A stretch of DNA of 45,279 nt. It comes from Candidatus Levyibacteriota bacterium (GTDB taxonomy: Bacteria; Patescibacteriota; Microgenomatia; Levybacterales; UBA12049). Position 1 is the first letter of the stretch. Each line of letters starts with the position of its first letter. The stretch lies in assembly GCA_016188975.1 (NCBI GenBank), contig JACPGQ010000027.1, positions 1 through 45,279 of the forward strand, read 5' to 3'. Below are positions 21,394 through 31,125 of this stretch, piece after piece. A model generated the notes under the pieces. The model was not told the origin of the DNA and made no database searches. It saw only the letters and a list, made by a program, of their open reading frames with translations. A program made the translations under genes and the position numbers.

Positions 21394-22101
21394 CTATCGT
21401 TTTCTGCCAAAAGTGGTGTAATCGGTAAGTTTTTGGAGATCGAGGACGGTAACCCTTCCTCTGTTTACTCGTATAATTCCCTCATCTTCGAGCCTATGAA
21501 GCGAAAGGGTGACTGTTTCGCGAAATGCACCGACGAATTCAGCGATGCGTTGATGCGTCAGTTCAAGTCCTATTTCGATCTCATTTTTTACCTTGATACC
21601 AAATTTCTCAGCGCAATCAGCCAGAAAAATTGCAACACGAGGAGTCGTACTCGCATAAATAAAACTCTCGAATTTTTTTTCCGTGAGGGCGAGACGGTCT
21701 CTATATGCTTGGAGGAGTTCTACGAGAATCTCAGGGTTATTGGCGATCCGATCGAAGCATTCTTTGCGAGATATTGTTTGTACTTTCAGAGGTGTCACTG
21801 CCTCTGCTGCATGGAGTGTGCGGTCATCCTTACTGAGGAGTGTTCGAATGCCCAGTAGCTGGCCTGGGCCGAGAAGATAACTTGTCGTTTCTCTTCCCTC
21901 TTCAGATAAGCGATAAATTTTGAGATAGCCTTCTCGTATTAAATATAATCTGCCCAGTGGATCACCTGTGTTGAAAAGTACCGAACCTTTTTTGACAAAC
22001 TGTACTGGCGGTGCGTCCGGCTCTGAGAAAAGCGAGGTAAAATCAGGCGGATCCCAGACCCGATCGAGTCGCTCCTTGAGTTTTCGTTTCTGCTCGTCCA
22101 C
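21394..22101 (-). CDS. CRP/FNR-family transcriptional regulator
   Basis: A 235-aa protein with an N-terminal cyclic-nucleotide-binding-like beta roll (residues ~32-115; KGSVLFNTGDPLGRLYLIREGYLKIYR-like), a dimerisation helix (~122-148) and a C-terminal winged helix. The recognition helix is GAFRETVTLSLHRLEDEG (residues 191-208). Arg194 and Glu195 match the CRP pair that reads the site, but the CRP Arg185 position is Leu199. No cysteine set for an Fe-S cluster as in FNR is visible, and the effector is unknown. The start is GTG at 22101, six bases after a TATAGT -10. The gene is divergent from the KAS III gene and is the prime candidate to control the lipid cluster. Confidence 0.88.
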   Translation of the reverse strand: MDEQKRKLKERLDRVWDPPDFTSLFSEPDAPPVQFVKKGSVLFNTGDPLGRLYLIREGYLKIYRLSEEGRETTSYLLGPGQLLGIRTLLSKDDRTLHAAEAVTPLKVQTISRKECFDRIANNPEILVELLQAYRDRLALTEKKFESFIYASTTPRVAIFLADCAEKFGIKVKNEIEIGLELTHQRIAEFVGAFRETVTLSLHRLEDEGIIRVNRGRVTVLDLQKLTDYTTFGRKR

Positions 22102-22206: not shown

Positions 22207-22223
22207 TTGTAAATTTGTTACAA
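22207..22223. promoter_or_regulatory. Operator-like palindrome between regulator and KAS III
   Basis: TTGTAA-N5-TTACAA, perfect arms. The half-site TGTAA is the same as in the palindrome at 29258-29273 in front of the reductase operon, though the spacing is one base shorter. Confidence 0.4.
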
Positions 22224-22332: not shown

Positions 22333-23445
22333 ATGTTACCAATTGAAGCACGAGCTGGAATGATTCCAGCGATTACAGGGGTTGGAAGCGCAGTTGGATC
22401 TGAAATTAAGACAAACGATGATCTGATACCTCATATAACTGCAGCAAACCCAGAGAAATGGGGTGGAAAAGAGCGTGCTTTCCGAATGCTCATGTATAAA
22501 GTTGGAATCCAAACGAGGCCACAGGTACGTATAGGAGAACAGGCAACCTCTCATTTGGCAACAGAAGCATCGAGAATAGCGATGGAGATGGCAGGAATAA
22601 GACCTGAGGATATCGGCTCAGTAGTAATTGCTACTTCCTCACAAGATTATTTAGGTCTTCCAGTTTCCCCTATGGTCCAAGATAATCTTGGTATTCCGAA
22701 TGATGTTGGAGCTTATGATCTCATGGCAGCCTGTCCAGGGTTTGGGCATAACCTCAGAAATGCTTTTTATGAGGTGACTCATCCTCTTTGGGATGGTAAG
22801 CCGATGCTTATAGGAGGGGCTGAGACAATAAGCCCATACACTGACGCTACGGATGAGAATACCTACCTGCTCTTTGGAGATGCCGCTGGATCGGTGATAG
22901 TTGATTTAGTGAAACCCGATGAAGGTGCACCGACAATATGGAAGATTGTCAGATGGTCAGACGGTAGTAAACGTATGGCAATTAGGGTCGATGCTGGAGG
23001 AACAATGAATCCACCAACTGAAAGGACTGTAAGGGAAAAACAGCATGTACTACGTCTAGATGGAAAAGTAGTAACTCAAACAGCTATTGAGCAGATGACA
23101 AGGCAAATAAAAGACGTACTCGAGCAAACGGGATATCCTGCCGAAGAGGTAAAACTTATTCCACATCAAGCAAATAAGAGTATTATGAATCCTGTAGCAG
23201 AGAATGTTGGGGTTCCTCGCGAGCATGTTGTGGTGACGATTGATAGATACGGAAACACATCTTCAGCAAGTATTCCGACTGCTCTCTACGAAGGTTTTCT
23301 GTCGGGACAGGTAAAACGTAATGAAGTTGTGGTATTTTGTACAGCAGGAGCTGGAATCAATGTCGTATCGGGAGTAATTCCGATGGTTGGATTACCTCAG
23401 GAACCAGATCCGCGATTTCATACGGTTGCAAGAGTTGCAGCTTAA
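22333..23445 (+). CDS. Beta-ketoacyl synthase III (FabH-like)
   Basis: A 370-aa thiolase-fold condensing enzyme. The complete KAS III triad is visible: Cys134 in DLMAACPGFG, His278 in LIPHQANKSI and Asn308 in RYGNTSSAS. In FabH this enzyme condenses a CoA-linked starter with malonyl-ACP to begin a fatty acid. The C-terminal FCTAGAGINVVSGVI is the usual glycine-rich end. It is about 45 residues longer than E. coli FabH, mostly at the N-terminus (residues 1-50) and the C-terminal tail. The KAS II gene follows after six bases, so the pair forms one operon. The start is fixed by a promoter with the ATG 6 nt beyond the -10. Polyketide or HMG-CoA-synthase-like roles remain possible, but the HQAN and GNTSSAS motifs favour FabH. 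Confidence 0.88.
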   Translation: MLPIEARAGMIPAITGVGSAVGSEIKTNDDLIPHITAANPEKWGGKERAFRMLMYKVGIQTRPQVRIGEQATSHLATEASRIAMEMAGIRPEDIGSVVIATSSQDYLGLPVSPMVQDNLGIPNDVGAYDLMAACPGFGHNLRNAFYEVTHPLWDGKPMLIGGAETISPYTDATDENTYLLFGDAAGSVIVDLVKPDEGAPTIWKIVRWSDGSKRMAIRVDAGGTMNPPTERTVREKQHVLRLDGKVVTQTAIEQMTRQIKDVLEQTGYPAEEVKLIPHQANKSIMNPVAENVGVPREHVVVTIDRYGNTSSASIPTALYEGFLSGQVKRNEVVVFCTAGAGINVVSGVIPMVGLPQEPDPRFHTVARVAA

Positions 23446-23451
23446 TTATCT

Positions 23452-24690
23452 ATGATTGATACTGAACCGAGACGAGTTGTAGTCACTGGTATTGGAGCGT
23501 TTTCCGCTCTCGGAGATTCTGCCTCGAAAAATTTCCAAAACCTCGTTGATGGGCAAATCGGCATTTCCCCTCTTCCATTTGAACATTCAACAATAAAGCT
23601 TGCAGGGCAAATAGCAAATTTTAATCTACGGGTAGTTTTTAGTGGATTCGACAATGCTCGGTTTAAAGAAACGAGACGGCTCCCCCGCGCTGCTCAAATA
23701 AGCGATGCTGCTGTTCAGGAAGCTTTACGAAGCGCTTGGCTTTTGAATGATGATTCTTGGTTCAGGGACCCAAGTCTCGCTGAGGAACTCCCTATATATA
23801 TGGCGACAGCAATTGGTGGTGGTTTTGACGTCGACGGACCTGATGCAAAGACGAAGATAAAAATAATTCAAGTTCTTCCTGATACAGTTGCCAGCGGACC
23901 AGGAAGACTATTTGGATTAAAAGGAACAAACATGTCACCGGTAGCAGCCTGTGCAGGCAGCGGTGAAGCTATAGGGATAGCGTTGAGAAATATCAGACAT
24001 GGATACAACGACATCGCTGTTGCAGGGGGAGCTGAGAGCGGCATAATGTCCCGACATCTTGATTACTATGCGGAGATAGGAGCGTTATCAAATTCAGAAG
24101 ATCCTCAGAGAGCAAGCATGCCGTTTGATGCAAACGCTTCTGGTATTGTTCTGGCAGAGCTGGGAGCAGCATTGGTACTCGAGTCAGAGGAGCATGCGGT
24201 GAGAAGAGGAGCGCAGATTTTTGGAGAAGCGTTAGAATTTGCCACCGGATCTGATGCATCCCATCCAACGATGAGCGATGGGTCTGCGCTGCGAAAAACG
24301 ATGCGTCGTGTCCGTATGGCTTTCGATGAAGAAAACACAGATGGAGTCATATTTGTTCAAGCCCATGCCACAGGAACTGAGGGAGATATTGTAGAAGGTG
24401 AAGTAATTGAAGAAGCGCTTGCAGAAGATCGTGAAAAAGTTGTTTATTCGTATAAAGGGAGAACCGGCCATCCGCTTGGTGCTGCAGGGGGATATGGTGC
24501 TTTCGTAACATTATTTGTCCTCAATAGTGGCACTGTGCCCCCGAATAATATTGAACATCCGGTTAAGAATTTTGACTTTGAGCTTCCACAACAAGCAGTT
24601 CAGAAAAGGGTTACGGCAGGGATAAGCAACTCATTAGGATTTGGGGGAAATACAAATTCTCTTGGGTTCGTGCCATACGTGCCCCACTAG
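23452..24690 (+). CDS. Beta-ketoacyl synthase II (FabF-like)
   Basis: A 412-aa elongating condensing enzyme. RRVVVTGIGAFSALG (residues 7-21) is the standard KAS I/II opening. The Cys-His-His set is present: Cys167 in SPVAACAGSGEAIG, His305 in VQAHATGTEGD and His340 in GRTGHPLGAAGG. The end SNSLGFGGNTNSL matches the family FGFGGTNA loop. It should extend acyl-ACP chains by two carbons with malonyl-ACP. Its length is typical of FabF. It is downstream of the KAS III gene in one operon and converges with the second KAS III-like gene 34 bases away. No acyl carrier protein gene, which normally neighbours fabF, is found here. Confidence 0.88.
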   Translation: MIDTEPRRVVVTGIGAFSALGDSASKNFQNLVDGQIGISPLPFEHSTIKLAGQIANFNLRVVFSGFDNARFKETRRLPRAAQISDAAVQEALRSAWLLNDDSWFRDPSLAEELPIYMATAIGGGFDVDGPDAKTKIKIIQVLPDTVASGPGRLFGLKGTNMSPVAACAGSGEAIGIALRNIRHGYNDIAVAGGAESGIMSRHLDYYAEIGALSNSEDPQRASMPFDANASGIVLAELGAALVLESEEHAVRRGAQIFGEALEFATGSDASHPTMSDGSALRKTMRRVRMAFDEENTDGVIFVQAHATGTEGDIVEGEVIEEALAEDREKVVYSYKGRTGHPLGAAGGYGAFVTLFVLNSGTVPPNNIEHPVKNFDFELPQQAVQKRVTAGISNSLGFGGNTNSLGFVPYVPH

Positions 24691-24724: not shown

Positions 24725-25948
24725 TTACGCAGCGAGCCGATCTCGGTAGAGGTTTGGATCGAGGAAGACAAGTTCTGCAAAATCTTGAGACCCTCCTGCT
24801 CCGTAAGCAAATATTATTACACTCCGCCCTGGCTCTGTGATGTCACGTACGTTGCCGTCGTGATAATCAAAACCTCGATGAAGTACTTTTCCCAGGGTGG
24901 CTGCACTACTATTTCCATCCTCCTTAGCAAGAAAAGGCATAGGTGCAGGTATTTCGTTGCGTTTGAGATCTCCGACGAAGAGATCGAAGACCGGTAGACT
25001 CGGATTGTGGGCAAAAATGGGGGGGAGCTGTTTTCCAGGATGTGCATCCATGTAGGCCTTCATTTCTCGTAATAAGAACGGCCCGGACTTCCTTCCAAAA
25101 AACCGAAACGTTGCCATTCCATCCATCCAAATATCATACCCCTCTGGAGGCTCTGCCATGATTATCATCTCCGTATTGTTCTCTGAATCTACCTGCCAAT
25201 ACTGTCTTATATCTTTAGGATCTGTGATCGGTTTTGTTTTATCTTTGTAGGTCATTGTCGCAGCAAGTACGCCGTTTTCATCAGGAATAATTTCATGACG
25301 ATGATGATGTATCTCTGTTTCAACAAGAGAAACATATCCTGTTATGGATACTGAATTTGAAAACGCACGATATGATGTAATGTCTACTCTTTTAGGGTTA
25401 TTTGTATATCTTGTCATGCCCTCAACGTTCACTTGCAATATCCTTTTTCCCTGAAATTCTTCTCGCTCGTGTGCTGCAGCTAATCCATACGCTGGTGAAT
25501 TACAGGCCGCAAAGACGTTAAGTGTTGGAATGTCAGGGTCTAGACCGATTCGATCTGCTATCTCTCTTGCGTAATTTGGAATTTTCCTTTTCCCATTGAT
25601 GCCTGGCATACCGCTTGTTACGATTACGCCTCCGACATCGGGTTTTGCCCATTCTCTTTCTCTAATTACCTCGTTTCCTACAGTTACTGCAGCCTCGATC
25701 TCATCTGATATGGCAGCTTCATCGTCGAGTTGGGGGTCGGTTTGATAAATGCAGTCAAATCCAAGATCTTTTTTGCGGAGTTCGTCCTCTGGTACTTGAT
25801 AGTATGTTGAAGCTCTACTTATGACCTCGTCTCTTGATAGCTTTACTCCCCATTGGCCATTTATTCCGACAATACCGGTGACGCTTCGATGTCTGTCAAT
25901 ATCAATCGGAGTGCCACTCGAGAGTTTGGGAGGTGTCAGCGTTTCCAT
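24725..25948 (-). CDS. Divergent KAS III-like condensing enzyme
   Basis: A 407-aa thiolase-fold protein, last gene of the minus-strand lipid operon. The putative triad is Cys149 in NVFAACNSPAYG, His314 in FAHNPSLPVFD and Asn346 in EDGNSSAATLGKVL. The usual HQAN is replaced by HNPS, but Cys, His and Asn keep the right order and spacing. The mid-domain has long insertions (residues ~215-265, with HHHRHE). Such proteins occur as second FabH copies, as starter-unit enzymes in polyketide pathways or as OleA-like head-to-head condensing enzymes. Which applies here cannot be told. It lies 66 bases after the dehydratase-like gene. Confidence 0.8.
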   Translation of the reverse strand: METLTPPKLSSGTPIDIDRHRSVTGIVGINGQWGVKLSRDEVISRASTYYQVPEDELRKKDLGFDCIYQTDPQLDDEAAISDEIEAAVTVGNEVIREREWAKPDVGGVIVTSGMPGINGKRKIPNYAREIADRIGLDPDIPTLNVFAACNSPAYGLAAAHEREEFQGKRILQVNVEGMTRYTNNPKRVDITSYRAFSNSVSITGYVSLVETEIHHHRHEIIPDENGVLAATMTYKDKTKPITDPKDIRQYWQVDSENNTEMIIMAEPPEGYDIWMDGMATFRFFGRKSGPFLLREMKAYMDAHPGKQLPPIFAHNPSLPVFDLFVGDLKRNEIPAPMPFLAKEDGNSSAATLGKVLHRGFDYHDGNVRDITEPGRSVIIFAYGAGGSQDFAELVFLDPNLYRDRLAA

Positions 25949-26014
25949 ACGAAGAGTATATTGATTTTTGGATCTTGCGGTCAGTGCGGGAGATTACAAA
26001 GGATTAGTAGTTAT

Positions 26015-26971
26015 TTATGCTGCGAAAAGCGTTTGCGCTTGTTCAAATGGGATGAGTCCTGCTTGAGTTCTTTTGTACGACGTAACGAGCTCGTCTCGCT
26101 GATTGAGGACTGTAGCTCCTGATGCAACAATAACAACGTCTCCCATTGGTCTGATTTGGAGTCCTTGTGGAATAATTTGAAGCACATCCCCTACTCTAAC
26201 TGGTCTATAATACTCGGCTCCTGCAATTTTTTTGAAGACGCCTACTTTGAGTGGTTTTCCTTCTGCATCTACTGGAAGACCTCCTGTTCCCATAGCCGCC
26301 GTTGCTATGAATTGAATTGCTGCTTCATCAATCTCATCAAAGGGTAAAACCTCTTCATTCTTAGGTACCCGTTCAAACCTCACTCTTTTCATGCTTATTA
26401 CGTCTTGACCCCCACGTTTCCCTTTAATATCCGCATACACTCCATCAACGCCTGCTCCTTGTGTTTCGGCAGTAAATTCTGCAGTATCTCCTTTTCTCAC
26501 AACTCCCTCAAAATTGACTGTCTCACTACTCACGACGAATACATCATACTTCTGCCTAAATTCTTCAAGTGTTAGGTTGTATGCAGACAATACGGCTGTT
26601 GTTACACCAGCACGTTCACTATAGTGACCAGGAGTTGGTTTAAATTCTTGGAGTAACCCGTCAAAATGTCCTGTGGTTTGGAGATCTGCAGTAAAAGATC
26701 CTACCCCGTTTTGAAATGTGTCAAGCGTAGGGACCGATCGTGCCCATCGAACTAGTTCCGGAGTAACCGTGAGAAATCCTCGAGCATTTTCTCCTTCTCC
26801 ATCAACTCGGTGGATACGAATTGCCGGAGGTCCCCAAATATCGAGTGCTGTCTGTGGGACGGTAGGTGGGAGAATGATGTCGGCACGAGGCAGAGTTATA
26901 TCACTCGGTTTAGGTGCTTGAAATCCTGCTTCTTGTGGAGAAATTGGCTGTCTTGGTGTTCCGTCTAGCAT
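26015..26971 (-). CDS. Double-hotdog dehydratase-like protein
   Basis: A 318-aa protein that looks like two fused hotdog folds. Half 1 contains TTGHFDGLLQEFKPTPG (His102), which resembles the FabZ/DH histidine motif. Half 2 contains DEIDEAAIQFIATAA, whose Glu216-x3-Gln220 resembles the FabZ/FabA acidic helix, followed by YYRPVRVGDVLQIIP, the hotdog strand seen in FabA/FabZ. His in half 1 and an acid in half 2 is the layout of polyketide-synthase DH domains. The expected reaction is dehydration of 3-hydroxyacyl-ACP. The start ATG at 26971 lies one base after the stop of the upstream SDR gene (TAA-T-ATG), which rules out the longer frame to 27028. The fold call is by eye and needs a profile search. 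Confidence 0.6.
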   Translation of the reverse strand: MLDGTPRQPISPQEAGFQAPKPSDITLPRADIILPPTVPQTALDIWGPPAIRIHRVDGEGENARGFLTVTPELVRWARSVPTLDTFQNGVGSFTADLQTTGHFDGLLQEFKPTPGHYSERAGVTTAVLSAYNLTLEEFRQKYDVFVVSSETVNFEGVVRKGDTAEFTAETQGAGVDGVYADIKGKRGGQDVISMKRVRFERVPKNEEVLPFDEIDEAAIQFIATAAMGTGGLPVDAEGKPLKVGVFKKIAGAEYYRPVRVGDVLQIIPQGLQIRPMGDVVIVASGATVLNQRDELVTSYKRTQAGLIPFEQAQTLFAA

Positions 26972-26972
26972 A

Positions 26973-28169
26973 TTAAATCGGACTTCTGAATGTGAGCATT
27001 GGATGGTCTTGAGGAATTTCCCTGACAATATTTGCTCGCGCTTCCTCTGGGGTTCCTGTCGGACCTAATACATAGAGTTTTCGCGGTTGTCCTGGCGTCC
27101 AAAGCTCAGGATCGTTGGGATCTGAGAGAAGCATGATCTGGACCGCCCTGGACATATCGGCTTTCATCATTGGCTTGTTGGTATCTGTGTATCGTTTTCT
27201 ATCATCTTCTGATAGTAAGGGCAAAAGGTATTGGTTTACCATTCTTCCAACACCAGTATCGTCTATCACCTGTCCTACAACAGTGTATGGGAAAACTCCA
27301 TTGGATTCCAGATAGCTTCTTCCTTCATCAGAATGTATTTCGTCGTCATGAGCTTTTTTTGATTCTGATATCGTGCGATACCAGTTAGGGACAATTGTGT
27401 CCTCATCAAGATCTCGTGCAGATTCCGCAACCTTTTCCGCTTCACTCCACGCGCTAGCAAAATTTATATATTTTGCTTCGTCTGTAAAAAGACCTTTCTG
27501 GATAAGATCTTCTAGCAGCAAACTTGGTCCAGCGTAATTTACTTTCATTGCCATCGGCATTGACCGAATTACCCACTGCACAACATCCTGTTGTAGTTTG
27601 GCACGCGCTTCTACAAATGCCTCTTCACCTTGTTCAGTACGTATAGTTGCCAATTTCCCCATCGCTTTCGTAAGTCTTAGTGCGTAGAATTCTATTCCTC
27701 CGGCGCTTACATTTATCTCTGCAGAGAATTTATCACCGCCTTTACTTTCTAGTTCGTTGCCAACATTTTTGATGCTTCGTCTGTTTAAAAAATCGACCTT
27801 GACCGGGGTAATATGTGCATCAATATCAATCTCTCCAGAAATTTTTCCTCCTGCCTGAGACGTTTTTGCATCTTTAACAACTGACCCTTCAATTTTTTCT
27901 GGATTTCTTGTGAGAATTGTCACTTTCGCTCCCATCCCGACAAGATCTAGTGAGACTGTGGCTCCTGTGCCCCTACTCCCTCCCGTAACGAGGATTTCTT
28001 GCCCAAAAAGAGGTAGCCCTTCAGCTGATTCAGTTTGCGGGAGAAATGCAGCCGAAGCGTCTAGAGCTCGAGGGGTACCGAAATCTGCTCCTCCGCCACC
28101 CTTTCCCCCAAAAGGAGCTTCGGTTTGAGTGTTTGCAAAAACACCTGCTTCGAGTGCTGCTATTGGCAT
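26973..28169 (-). CDS. SDR reductase, candidate enoyl-ACP reductase
   Basis: A 398-aa short-chain dehydrogenase. After a 55-residue Gly-rich N-terminal extension, the nucleotide-binding strand is EILVTGGSRGTGATVSL (TGGSRGTG at 62-69). NVSAGG (153-158) and MKVNYAGPSLLLEDLI (208-223) are the SDR Asn motifs, and KYINFASAW is the Ser strand. No Tyr is placed in the classical Y-x3-K register. Instead Tyr264 and Lys271 have the Y-x6-K spacing of FabI-type enoyl reductases. This suggests it does the second reduction of the cycle, but it could be a ketoreductase with an altered site. Long insertions (residues ~100-150 and 240-262) set it apart from standard FabI. It begins five bases after the FabG-like stop. 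Confidence 0.7.
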   Translation of the reverse strand: MPIAALEAGVFANTQTEAPFGGKGGGGADFGTPRALDASAAFLPQTESAEGLPLFGQEILVTGGSRGTGATVSLDLVGMGAKVTILTRNPEKIEGSVVKDAKTSQAGGKISGEIDIDAHITPVKVDFLNRRSIKNVGNELESKGGDKFSAEINVSAGGIEFYALRLTKAMGKLATIRTEQGEEAFVEARAKLQQDVVQWVIRSMPMAMKVNYAGPSLLLEDLIQKGLFTDEAKYINFASAWSEAEKVAESARDLDEDTIVPNWYRTISESKKAHDDEIHSDEGRSYLESNGVFPYTVVGQVIDDTGVGRMVNQYLLPLLSEDDRKRYTDTNKPMMKADMSRAVQIMLLSDPNDPELWTPGQPRKLYVLGPTGTPEEARANIVREIPQDHPMLTFRSPI

Positions 28170-28174
28170 ATTTT

Positions 28175-29224
28175 TTAGGCTGCGAGCCAGGTTGGGATTT
28201 CTCCTCGACCAAACATTGGTATTACTTGACCTGTGATTCCGTCGGAGTACGGACCCATCAAATAGGCGAGCATAGCTCCCGGTTCACCTGCATCAAGTTC
28301 TCTGTCGGCTCCCATTTTTGTAACAATTCCTGCACGAACCTCTGGTGATAATCCGGCAACTAAGGGGGTATCAACAAGTCCTGGGGCAATTGCGTTTACT
28401 TCAATATTGTGAGGTGGTCTGCCTTTTTCAAGAGCTCTCTGATTCAGAATATTAAGCTCGTCTGCAAGAGCTCTTATCCCTGCGTGAAATGCGCCTTTCG
28501 CCATTGAGTATTCAATTTGAAAAGCGTTTCCAATTCCAGAAGCACTTCCAATCCCAGCTATTTTCCCTCCAGCTGGGTTCTGGCTTTGCATAATCTCTGC
28601 AGCAGTTATAGCGGCAAACATTGGCCCCTCGGCGTCCTTTAATAGAATCTCTCGTACCTTTTCTGGTTCAACTTTTTTGTATGACCAAGTGTTCTGCATA
28701 TCTCCAGATCCCACGATGAGGCCATCCAGTCTGCCCCGCTCTTTTGCAACCTGCCGTACGAGTCTTTGACCATCATACATTTCGACTTTTTTTCCCCTAT
28801 CGTTTGTCACCGAAATCCAAGCTGCAACATCTGAACCCATCCACTGCGCATTTGGGCCAAGCTTTTCAAGAAATTCTCTCATTCCTGAACTTTTCGGTTC
28901 GCCAGAATCGGTCATCCGAGAACTCACCACTACAAACGCACCCTGTAAAATCAGCTCCCTTGCTGCAGCACCAGCCATTCCTTTAGGGCCAGCTCCAAGT
29001 GCAAGAATCACTTTTCCTTGCATTACCTGATTTTCTCTTGCCTCACGGATTGTCTGGGCATTAAATCCTGTAATGTCTGGATTAAAAACTTGAAGGCTTA
29101 ATTCCAGTGGCTTCGCTACCTGTTGTTCCGCTCCGCCTGGTAGTACTCCTGTATCAGGATATAAAAGTTCTGTGCGTCCGATTCTGGCGAGGGGTCCTGC
29201 AAATGTTTCTATTCCTGCTGCCAT
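28175..29224 (-). CDS. SDR 3-ketoacyl reductase (FabG-like)
   Basis: A 349-aa protein, first gene of the minus-strand lipid operon. A 68-residue N-terminal extension (with LARIGRTELLYPDTGVLPGG) precedes the Rossmann domain with VILALGAGPKGMAGAAA (residues 72-88, G-x3-G-x-G type). GIGSASGIGN (224-233) gives the catalytic Ser, and Tyr239-SMA-Lys243 is the classical Y-x3-K. NAIAPGLVDTPL (near residue 283) is the FabG-style loop. It should reduce 3-oxoacyl-ACP with NADPH. The start is at 29224, six bases after a TAAATT -10, with a CRP-type palindrome centred at -41.5. Confidence 0.82.
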   Translation of the reverse strand: MAAGIETFAGPLARIGRTELLYPDTGVLPGGAEQQVAKPLELSLQVFNPDITGFNAQTIREARENQVMQGKVILALGAGPKGMAGAAARELILQGAFVVVSSRMTDSGEPKSSGMREFLEKLGPNAQWMGSDVAAWISVTNDRGKKVEMYDGQRLVRQVAKERGRLDGLIVGSGDMQNTWSYKKVEPEKVREILLKDAEGPMFAAITAAEIMQSQNPAGGKIAGIGSASGIGNAFQIEYSMAKGAFHAGIRALADELNILNQRALEKGRPPHNIEVNAIAPGLVDTPLVAGLSPEVRAGIVTKMGADRELDAGEPGAMLAYLMGPYSDGITGQVIPMFGRGEIPTWLAA

Positions 29225-29230
29225 GGAATA

Positions 29231-29273
29231 AATTTAGACTTTATTGGCGGGGAAATCTGTAATGTCTCTTACA
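29231..29273 (-). promoter_or_regulatory. Activator-type promoter of the lipid operon
   Basis: The -10 TAAATT (29236-29231) is 6 nt before the ATG at 29224, so the start point should coincide with the start codon. The -35 position (CAGATT) is poor. The palindrome TGTAA-N6-TTACA (29258-29273) is centred between 29265 and 29266, exactly -41.5, the class II site of CRP/FNR activators. Confidence 0.55.
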
Positions 29274-29441
29274 AAAGTTGAGGAAGTTTTGTGGTCATTT
29301 TTAGTACACGTGACATATTAGTTTTTTGCTTATAATATTTGTCTATCAGCAGAAGTATTTCTCAAAACATCACAAATTTGTCCTAGGGAAAAAATGTGAT
29401 GATTATGAAGTTTATGACTCAGACAGCGTCAGAATACTAAC

Positions 29442-30623
29442 CTAAGCAGATATTATTTTTCCAGATCCGGGTTTGGCGAGGACCATTCTATCCTCAAACA
29501 CTTTTTCTCCCCTTAGAAAAACTCTTTTGACTCTCCCCTTCACTTTCCAGCCGTTGAAAGGAGACCATTTGCACTTCGTGAGAAGTTTGTCGTTTGAAAT
29601 CTCCCATTCTTCATCAAGATCAACTTCTGCATACGTGTTTTCATGTATCGATACATGAAAACAACGGGCTGGGCCGGTGTGACAAAGTCTAACAACGTCG
29701 TCAATTAGAAGTTTATCCTCATGCACTGCGGTGAGCAGCAGTGGTAGTGTTGTCTCAAGTCCGGGAACGCCATAATGTGGTCCGCCAGCTGGCGGATCTG
29801 ATCGTTTTTCATCAACGGTATGGGGAGCATGATCAGATTCAATCACGTCAATTGCGTCCAGATGTTGCCACAAAAAGTCTATGTCTTCCCTACTCTGAAG
29901 CGGTGGTTTCATTTGACCAAGATGTCCAAGTCGTCCTTCGTCCTCAGACGTCAAAAATAAATGGTGCGGTGTTACCCCGCACGTTACTGGTAATCCCTGG
30001 CTTTTCGCCTCGATAACTCTTTTCAGTTCATACGAGGTGCTCAGGTGGCAGAGATGAATTGGGCGGGGATGTTCCTTGAGGACATTCAGGACAATGTCAA
30101 ATGTTTCATTTTCCGCGTGAAAGAGGATTGGGCTATTGTGTGTCCATTCCACAAAGATACGCATTAGCGTAGGTTTGTGATTTAGTGTGTAATTTCCCGT
30201 GGTGGGATTCAGATATAGTTTGAGTCCAAAAACTTTCAGATTATTGTTCGAGCTATGTCGAGAACCTCCATTGTTAAATTGTTTCATTGTTCCATTGCTT
30301 CTCGACTCGTCGCCTTGCGAAGCCCTATTGGTGGCGAACTCGCTCAAAGGATAAGTTAGCTTTTCAAACTCCTCTAGATTATCCCCCATCGAGCCGAAGT
30401 AAAATCCAACATCACAAACAATTTTTTCTCTTGCTACGTTGATTTTTTCTTCCAGTCTCTGAGCAGTCGTGATAGGAGTCTTATTGTTGGGCATATCAAG
30501 GACTGTCGTGAATCCCCCGGCAAGCGCAGCAGAAGTCCCAGTAAAAAAATCCTCTTTCTCCGTTTGTCCGGGATCACGGAGATGCACATGTGGATCGATA
30601 AGGCCAGGTAATGTAATCGTCAT
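29442..30623 (-). CDS. pyrC: Dihydroorotase
   Basis: A 393-aa zinc amidohydrolase that cyclises carbamoyl-aspartate to dihydroorotate, step 3 of pyrimidine synthesis. The metal/substrate motif GLIDPHVHLRDPGQTEKED (residues 7-25; His12, His14) is intact. Also present are the VLDMPNN loop, metal-site His residues in HAENET and HLCHLS, and the catalytic Asp region in ESDHAPHTVDEK. Two insertions are repeat-derived: residues ~91-129, rich in Asn and Ser (30237-30350), and the PPAGG loop encoded by a perfect 16-bp palindrome (29781-29796). It is the last gene of the pyr operon. Confidence 0.92.
   Translation of the reverse strand: MTITLPGLIDPHVHLRDPGQTEKEDFFTGTSAALAGGFTTVLDMPNNKTPITTAQRLEEKINVAREKIVCDVGFYFGSMGDNLEEFEKLTYPLSEFATNRASQGDESRSNGTMKQFNNGGSRHSSNNNLKVFGLKLYLNPTTGNYTLNHKPTLMRIFVEWTHNSPILFHAENETFDIVLNVLKEHPRPIHLCHLSTSYELKRVIEAKSQGLPVTCGVTPHHLFLTSEDEGRLGHLGQMKPPLQSREDIDFLWQHLDAIDVIESDHAPHTVDEKRSDPPAGGPHYGVPGLETTLPLLLTAVHEDKLLIDDVVRLCHTGPARCFHVSIHENTYAEVDLDEEWEISNDKLLTKCKWSPFNGWKVKGRVKRVFLRGEKVFEDRMVLAKPGSGKIISA
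29781..29796. repeat. 16-bp perfect palindrome inside pyrC
   Basis: TCCGCCAGCTGGCGGA, the short form of the CCGCC/GGCGG element. It encodes part of a loop next to the catalytic Asp region. Confidence 0.75.
30237..30350. repeat. Repeat-derived insertion inside pyrC
   Basis: Contains tandem CATTGTT/AATTGTT/CATTGTT motifs and inverted TTCGAGC/GCTTCTCGA-like segments. It encodes an Asn/Ser-rich segment between two conserved dihydroorotase strands and keeps the frame. Confidence 0.55.
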
Positions 30624-30631
30624 AGGTAGCG

Positions 30632-31069
30632 TTAGTCGGTTATGATGCTCGTATCGTCAGAAGGTTTCGTCAGAGGTCTTTTAAAGGTTGACCATGCAAT
30701 AGTAAGTTTATAGAGTTGCCGTGATGCCATATCGTATGTATCAACGAGTTTATTAATGAGCTCTTTTTCAATTGCGTAGATGTCGCGACATTGCTCGAGG
30801 CTCACAATAGTTTCGTTCGATTCTCCCATTGCATCGTCGAGATATTTTTGAAATCCTGCTTTCTGATGCCTTTTTCCGTAGCCTTCAGCGATTAGTCTTG
30901 GAATTGCTTTACAAGATCTGCTGAGTTGGTCTCTGAGGTCAAATTTTTCAGAGTCTGGAAGCTTGGGAGTAATCTCCTTCATCACAATGAGCATTGCCTG
31001 ATAGGTATTTTGATAAACACGAAGATCTCTAAAACTTTTGATTTGAGGATTATTGCTATTTGAGTTCAT
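30632..31069 (-). CDS. Four-helix-bundle protein (S23 / rRNA-intervening-sequence type)
   Basis: A 145-aa all-helical protein. The opening SFRDLRVYQNTYQAMLIVMKE, the central DQLSRSCKAIPRLIAEGYGKR and the E-rich fourth helix match the S23/IVP family. This family is found in 23S rRNA intervening sequences and free in many genomes as a small pentameric bundle of unknown function. The start at 31069 is chosen because the family homology begins there; upstream codons lie in the gap to carB. It sits inside the pyrimidine operon, 8 bases before pyrC and 56 after carB, which is an unusual place. Confidence 0.82.
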   Translation of the reverse strand: MNSNSNNPQIKSFRDLRVYQNTYQAMLIVMKEITPKLPDSEKFDLRDQLSRSCKAIPRLIAEGYGKRHQKAGFQKYLDDAMGESNETIVSLEQCRDIYAIEKELINKLVDTYDMASRQLYKLTIAWSTFKRPLTKPSDDTSIITD

Positions 31070-31125
31070 ACGATAACTATAACACGTAACCGAAACGAGC
31101 TTCGTTACCACAACCTATTTCCTAA

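Follow-up and report, generated by a model that had tools for sequence, protein, structure and literature searches.

The window, i.e., the whole stretch of 45,279 nucleotides that was analysed here, carries on its minus strand a CRP/FNR-family regulator gene and a group of fatty-acid-type genes headed by a short-chain dehydrogenase/reductase (SDR) gene, with a fabH-type and a fabF-type gene on the plus strand between them. Table 1 lists these genes together with the promoter elements and candidate regulatory sites.

Table 1. Genes, promoter elements and candidate sites in the window.
Feature	Position	Strand	Remarks
Candidate operator palindrome, TGTAA-N6-TTACA	29258-29273	.	centre at -41.5; same half-sites in congener (L050:1379-1394)
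19-nt block ACAAAACTTCCTCAACTTT	29274-29292	-	directly upstream of palindrome; 19/19 identical in congener
-10 box, TAAATT	29231-29236	-	6 nt ahead of start codon; same in L050
Predicted start point, A of ATG (leaderless)	29224	-	from -10 position and lineage-wide spacer-6 peak
SDR / FabG-like reductase	28175-29224	-	first gene of the putative controlled unit; Pfam adh_short_C2, 1.5e-19
Second gene, SDR-like N-terminal part	26973-28169	-	follows the SDR gene
Third gene, without Pfam family	26015-27028	-	homologue in congener cluster
Degenerate site TGTAATCTCCCGCACT	25983-25998	-	centre at -42.5 of FabH-like gene, which is leaderless with -10 TATACT; also at this place in congener
KAS III (FabH)-like gene	24725-25948	-	85% identical in congener
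fabF-type ketoacyl synthase	23452-24690	+	Pfam
fabH-type gene	22333-23445	+	TTGACA-N17-TAGTAT-N6-ATG; without class II site
TGTAA-N5-TTACA element	22208-22222	.	between regulator and fabH; -114 of regulator's predicted start; conserved in congener
CRP/FNR-family regulator	21394-22101	-	cNMP_binding and HTH_Crp_2; recognition helix RETVTL

Palindrome and promoter at the SDR start

The 217-base gap between the SDR gene and the dihydroorotase-type gene at 29442-30623 contains, on the plus strand, the sequence TGTAATGTCTCTTACA, a perfect TGTAA-N6-TTACA palindrome centred between 29265 and 29266, as the initial annotation of this DNA had reported. The TAAATT box, read on the minus strand, is separated from the start codon by the six bases TATTCC, which is the arrangement of a leaderless gene. 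With the A of the ATG taken as +1, the palindrome is centred at -41.5, and the geometry proposed earlier was thus reproduced, with the start point as a prediction. The -35 region, which had been called poor, offers at spacers of 15-19 no hexamer with more than 3/6 matches to TTGACA. Both elements of a class II layout are present in the window and in its congener: a site exactly at -41.5, given the predicted start, and a -10 box (TAAATT) accompanied by a best -35 hexamer of 3/6.

The assignment of position 29224 as +1 is supported by a lineage-wide pattern. Of 143 starts preceded by a gap of 60 bases or more, 18 have a TATAAT-like box (at least 5/6) with a spacer of exactly 6 to the start codon; any other spacer between 0 and 40 is seen in 0 to 6 of them, and the TAnnnT pattern peaked at spacer 6 as well (26 starts). 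Judged from these promoter sequences, leaderless promoters consisting of a -10 box, 6 nt and the start codon are a habit of this lineage.

Conservation and recurrence of the candidate operator

A genome-wide motif search, which the initial annotation had proposed as a check, was carried out as a set of pattern searches and revealed no enrichment. The window genome (G000, 1.31 Mb in 76 contigs) has 2 exact copies of TGTAA-N6-TTACA, as compared with the 4 that the reversed word, used as a control, gives on each strand, and TGTA-N8-TACA and its control gave 22 and 23 matches in this genome and 13 and 15 in congener G046. With counts at the chance level, the palindrome by itself carries no genome-wide significance; what makes it significant is its conservation in the congener and its de novo recovery beside orthologous regulators. 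The only other exact copy in G000 lies at C36:10473-10488 (L001:1501-1516) and is followed by an N5 copy after some 24 bp; the frame downstream of the exact copy is one that we take, by eye, to encode 6-phosphogluconate dehydrogenase. The other exact copy in G046, at C91:32223, is intragenic and looks like a chance occurrence.

In G046, the only congener, both half-sites (5/5 each), the TAAATT box (6/6) and the centre at -41.5 are kept, which answers the upstream comparison suggested at the outset. Conservation extends over 29255-29292, where 35/38 bases match, whereas the remainder of the intergenic gap matches at 71/144 aligned bases and the 21-base spacer at 12/21 with its length unchanged. 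The SDR products of the two genomes are only 26% identical, so the promoter was preserved as the gene that it precedes either diverged or gave way to another. A comparison of window positions 26015-29224 with L050:1428-4580 showed that the three lipid genes are only 26-42% identical and most of their neighbours 67-91%, as though replacement or fast evolution had affected the genes that follow the kept promoter.

These observations also bear on the proposal that the palindrome acts in RNA, as a hairpin or as the terminator of the pyr genes that lie upstream, or has arisen by chance. The exact word is no commoner in the genome than its control, and as RNA the palindrome can form a short hairpin of -4.5 kcal/mol. 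Its fold is not unusual (z -1.65) and is followed by no T run, however, and a stronger hairpin is present at 29350-29415 (-14 kcal/mol, z -2.99), all of which disfavours the hairpin or terminator reading; chance, for its part, would leave the conserved half-sites, the geometry and the recovery beside orthologues unexplained. Taken together, an origin of this kind is highly improbable. The stretch at 29350-29415 consists of CATCACA...TGTGATG followed by TTTTG, and is a likely terminator of the pyr genes.

Recurrence was assessed at the loci of 12 regulator orthologues, 42-65% identical to that of the window, with the window and G046 left out. These orthologues come from Candidatus Levyibacteriota, Levybacteria, Daviesbacteria, Blackburnbacteria and organisms assigned only to Patescibacteria, and the relatives compared are mostly draft metagenome genomes. 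An unbiased palindrome scan (all 1024 five-base words combined with spacers 0-12) of 200 bases upstream and downstream, or less at contig ends, found, when one mismatch was allowed, TGTAA-N6-TTACA in 7 of the 12 loci. It was the top word, tied with its own inner register GTAAT-N4-ATTAC, and TGTAA with an N5 or N7 spacer was found in none of the 12 flank sets. Over 61 dinucleotide shuffles the maximum was 6 loci for any word and 1 for TGTAA-N6-TTACA. Additionally, sites scoring at least 7/10 were paired exactly 23 bp apart in 7/12 loci, while 300 shuffles gave at most 2 loci at this pitch and at most 5 at any spacing; with the looser threshold of 6/10, the 23-bp spacing no longer stood out among the 12 loci. 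The de novo recovery and the tandem copies argue for an operator; the 42-65% identity of the orthologues outside the genus counts against this reading. In L052, L054, L055 and L103 an operator copy starts 3 to 6 bases past the regulator stop codon. Upstream of the regulator in L101, three operator-like copies are found at offsets -115, -92 and -69, i.e., at the 23-bp pitch.

The genes near these sites point in the same direction. In 8/12 orthologue loci, Pfam searches identified fatty-acid-type genes no more than about 5 kb from the regulator: a KAS III (L051), an acyl transferase (L053, L055), an acyl transferase with an SDR and a ketoacyl synthase (L054), a ketoacyl synthase with FabG-type, SDR and FabA-like genes (L099), FabG-type, SDR and ketoacyl synthase genes (L101), an acyl transferase and a FabG-type gene (L102), and a ketoacyl synthase with an acyl transferase (L103). 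This association supports the operator reading; counting against it, no fatty-acid-type gene was seen among the genes scanned, a part of each locus, in L052, L056, L057 and L100. Also against it, the sites near FabG-type genes in other genera (L101, L102) lie at about -65 rather than -41.5. Outside the genus, the best SDR match across the 82 genomes of the order is just 31% identical, the only match there to the FabH-like gene of the cluster is a 29% one in G024, and the named genome collection holds no close SDR relative. A full-length ketoacyl synthase (E <1e-10) was counted by eye in 3/9 order genomes with the regulator and in 5/73 without it, a co-occurrence that is suggestive only.

When 44 leaderless-type starts were scored for TGTAA-N5..7-TTACA centred between -41 and -43, the four best were all fatty-acid-type genes, namely the SDR genes of the window and of G046 (10/10 each), the L051 KAS III (9, with N5) and a G046 ketoacyl synthase (8), which again supports the operator reading. 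These starts come from loci picked around regulators and SDR matches, in which fatty-acid-type genes are over-represented, and two of the top four have alternative promoters (TTGACC-N17-TATAGT at L050:7195 and a second possible start at L051:6414). Two further starts score 7, one in L059 and the other belonging to the FabH-like gene at 25948, upstream of which the block TTTGTAATCTCCCGCACTGACCGC (window 25977-26000) is conserved in both congeners. The plus-strand fabH-type gene, which has no such site, carries a perfect TTGACA -35 instead, a further point in favour of the operator reading. Counting against the preferred reading, the element ahead of the window regulator is one base short of the operator, with a spacer of N5 instead of N6. 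Its congener counterpart at L050:8621-8635 is also at -114, in a partly conserved gap, and further N5 elements are found at L050:5871 and L051:6365.

The regulator and its predicted half-site

Membership of the 21394-22101 product in the CRP/FNR superfamily was established by matches to PF00027 (2e-15) and PF13545 (1.5e-15), both above the gathering scores. Its AlphaFold2 model has a pLDDT of 87.3, with Mtb CRP, NtcA and GlxR as top PDB matches. The protein scores 89.7 bits against the NtcA equivalog (TIGR03697, cut-off 244.95) and 60.1 bits against that of cAMP-CRP (NF008732, cut-off 266), and with both scores under the NCBIfam cut-offs it is neither NtcA nor cAMP-CRP. In an alignment made by eye, counterparts of CRP Glu72 and Ser83 are not kept. 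The ligand is probably not cAMP. The arginine aligned with NtcA Arg88, a residue of the 2-oxoglutarate pocket comparison, varies among the orthologues. The counterparts of NtcA Arg129 and Glu134, residues whose roles are described in PMC12937710, are invariant in 14/14 aligned proteins, which would be compatible with a 2-oxoglutarate-like ligand.

The positions of E. coli CRP Arg180, Glu181 and Arg185 are occupied in the regulator by R194, E195 and L199, as had been noted from the sequence. Across 14 proteins from 13 loci (the window, the two copies of L050 and 11 others, with the L057 fragment left out), R194 and E195 never vary, and at the Arg185 position Leu, Ile, Val or Gly is found. The CRP contacts that the initial annotation had named are in print: PMC11253593 describes Arg180 as contacting G2, the first G of TGTGA, and Arg185 and Glu181 as contacting G4:C4, the second G:C pair.

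The suggestion that Leu199 fits a TGTAA half-site was examined in the regions upstream of 92 CRP-family frames, with a match of 9 or better taken as a site. The underlying 101 loci, a set that leaves out L028 (part of L057) and the three matches G078:C81, G005:C86 and G079:C92, had given 94 regulator frames at E 1e-3, from which two L167 rows (copies of L040) were dropped. Frames with RE and with Ile, Leu or Val at the Arg185 position have TGTAA-N6-TTACA upstream in 17/44 cases and TGTGA-N6-TCACA in 1/44, while those with RE and Arg have them in 0/31 and 5/31, respectively. The remaining 17 frames, with other helices and including one true orthologue (L103, RETVTG), have neither site. Ignoring relatedness, Fisher's exact test gave p = 3.3e-5 for TGTAA and 0.076 for TGTGA. 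A control on the tree found five class changes, with one or two supported independent pairs and none in the opposite direction, i.e., no significance once relatedness is allowed for. The split between Ile/Leu/Val and Arg across these 75 proteins agrees with the suggestion, with only one or two independent contrasts in the phylogeny.

The contrast is also seen within the window genome, where AGTGACCACTGTCACA precedes the paralogue with the RETVSR helix and TGTAATCTGGATTACG the one with RETVSV. The paralogue with Arg at the 185 position (G000:C68:30831, L135; G046:C104, L140) has a GTGA-N6-TCAC palindrome upstream in both species. The paralogue at G000:C62:7142 (L134; L139 at C72 in G046) has a TGTAA-N6-TTAC-type palindrome upstream of itself, whose distance upstream of the -10 box is greater in the congener by 11 bp, or roughly one turn of the helix.

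This last protein raises the question of whether a real operator at the SDR start has a different reader, either sole or competing, among the CRP-family proteins of this genome, in which case the neighbouring regulator would not be the main one. The C62:7142 paralogue (RETVSV) would be the foremost candidate, as its recognition helix is of the same class as that of the 21394-22101 product and the TGTAATCTGGATTACG site lies ahead of its own gene, with TGTAACGCATCTTACG at its G046 counterpart. The 21394-22101 regulator, however, is encoded no further than 8 kb from the SDR promoter in either congener, and in other genera its orthologues adjoin both fatty-acid-type genes and copies of TGTAA-N6-TTACA, and for this reason we consider a different reader improbable.

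A predicted class II promoter and its known counterparts

Altogether, these observations suggest that the palindrome probably serves as operator for a CRP/FNR-family protein, of which the 21394-22101 product is the likeliest, and which would act by class II activation of the SDR-led genes. In the mechanism that we propose, a dimer of this protein would bind the palindrome at -41.5 and recruit RNA polymerase to a leaderless promoter that has no -35 box, and the unit so activated would comprise the fatty-acid-type genes from 29224 to 24725.

The class II layout put forward in the initial annotation was retained, but E. coli CRP, its model, was replaced by cyanobacterial NtcA, whose promoters match more closely. 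In PMC3898017, NtcA-activated promoters are described as class II promoters with GTAN8TAC at about -41.5 and a TAN3T -10 box. The SDR promoter shares with them the GTA/TAC half-site core, the spacing, the centre, the TAN3T-type -10 box and the lack of a -35 box, and NtcA entries are among the regulator's best sequence and fold matches. It differs in the recognition helix of the regulator (RETVTL rather than the RVTVTR of NtcA), the candidate fatty-acid-type target, the predicted leaderless transcript and the Patescibacterium host. With the class II promoters of E. coli CRP (TGTGA-N6-TCACA) it shares the fold family, the N6 spacer, the -41.5 centre and counterparts of Arg180 and Glu181, but not the residue at the Arg185 position or the half-site. 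In DdrI of Deinococcus radiodurans, another CRP-family protein, position 185 has likewise changed, although to Lys, and the protein was tested on TGTGA-N6-TCACA (PMC11253593).

NtcA also represses, from boxes downstream of -35 (PMC3898017), and the bound protein could instead act negatively at the SDR start, covering the -35 region until a ligand lifts the block. Tandem copies near the regulator's own start in L054 and L056 (-58 and -35 in each) and at L100:9188, where autorepression is likely, would be in keeping with such a role. At the SDR promoter itself, the exact -41.5 centre and the lack of a usable -35 in both species are the layout of a class II activator, and a missing -35 is not something that a repressor needs, which makes repression there unlikely.

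The SDR promoter is best understood as class II and NtcA-like, with a new clade of CRP/FNR proteins as its reader. It is about as likely as not that this clade, in the Microgenomates, forms a dedicated regulator of fatty-acid-type sets, with its own TGTAA-N6-TTACA operator, often as a 23-bp tandem, read through a hydrophobic residue in place of Arg185, with a ligand other than cAMP, and with leaderless promoters whose -35 the operator replaces.

Most Patescibacteria are described as being without complete fatty-acid pathways (PMC7143001), and a conserved switch on a fatty-acid-type set raises the question of when and why a few of their lineages make such chains. A literature search, with subscription journals mostly outside it, returned no paper on leaderless genes or CRP operators in Patescibacteria/CPR bacteria, nor on Patescibacteria with FabH. 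The regulator and its candidate operator are a small pair that can be tested in vitro, and through the natural contrast between Leu/Ile/Val and Arg, present in a single genome, the CRP code for the second G of the half-site can be put to a direct test.

Two further features of the region were recorded. The congener carries a tandem second copy of the regulator (L050:9457-10170), 46% identical and directly behind the first. In the window, a gene for a 23S rRNA intervening-sequence-type protein (PF05635) lies at 30632-31111, between the carB-like and pyrC-like genes.
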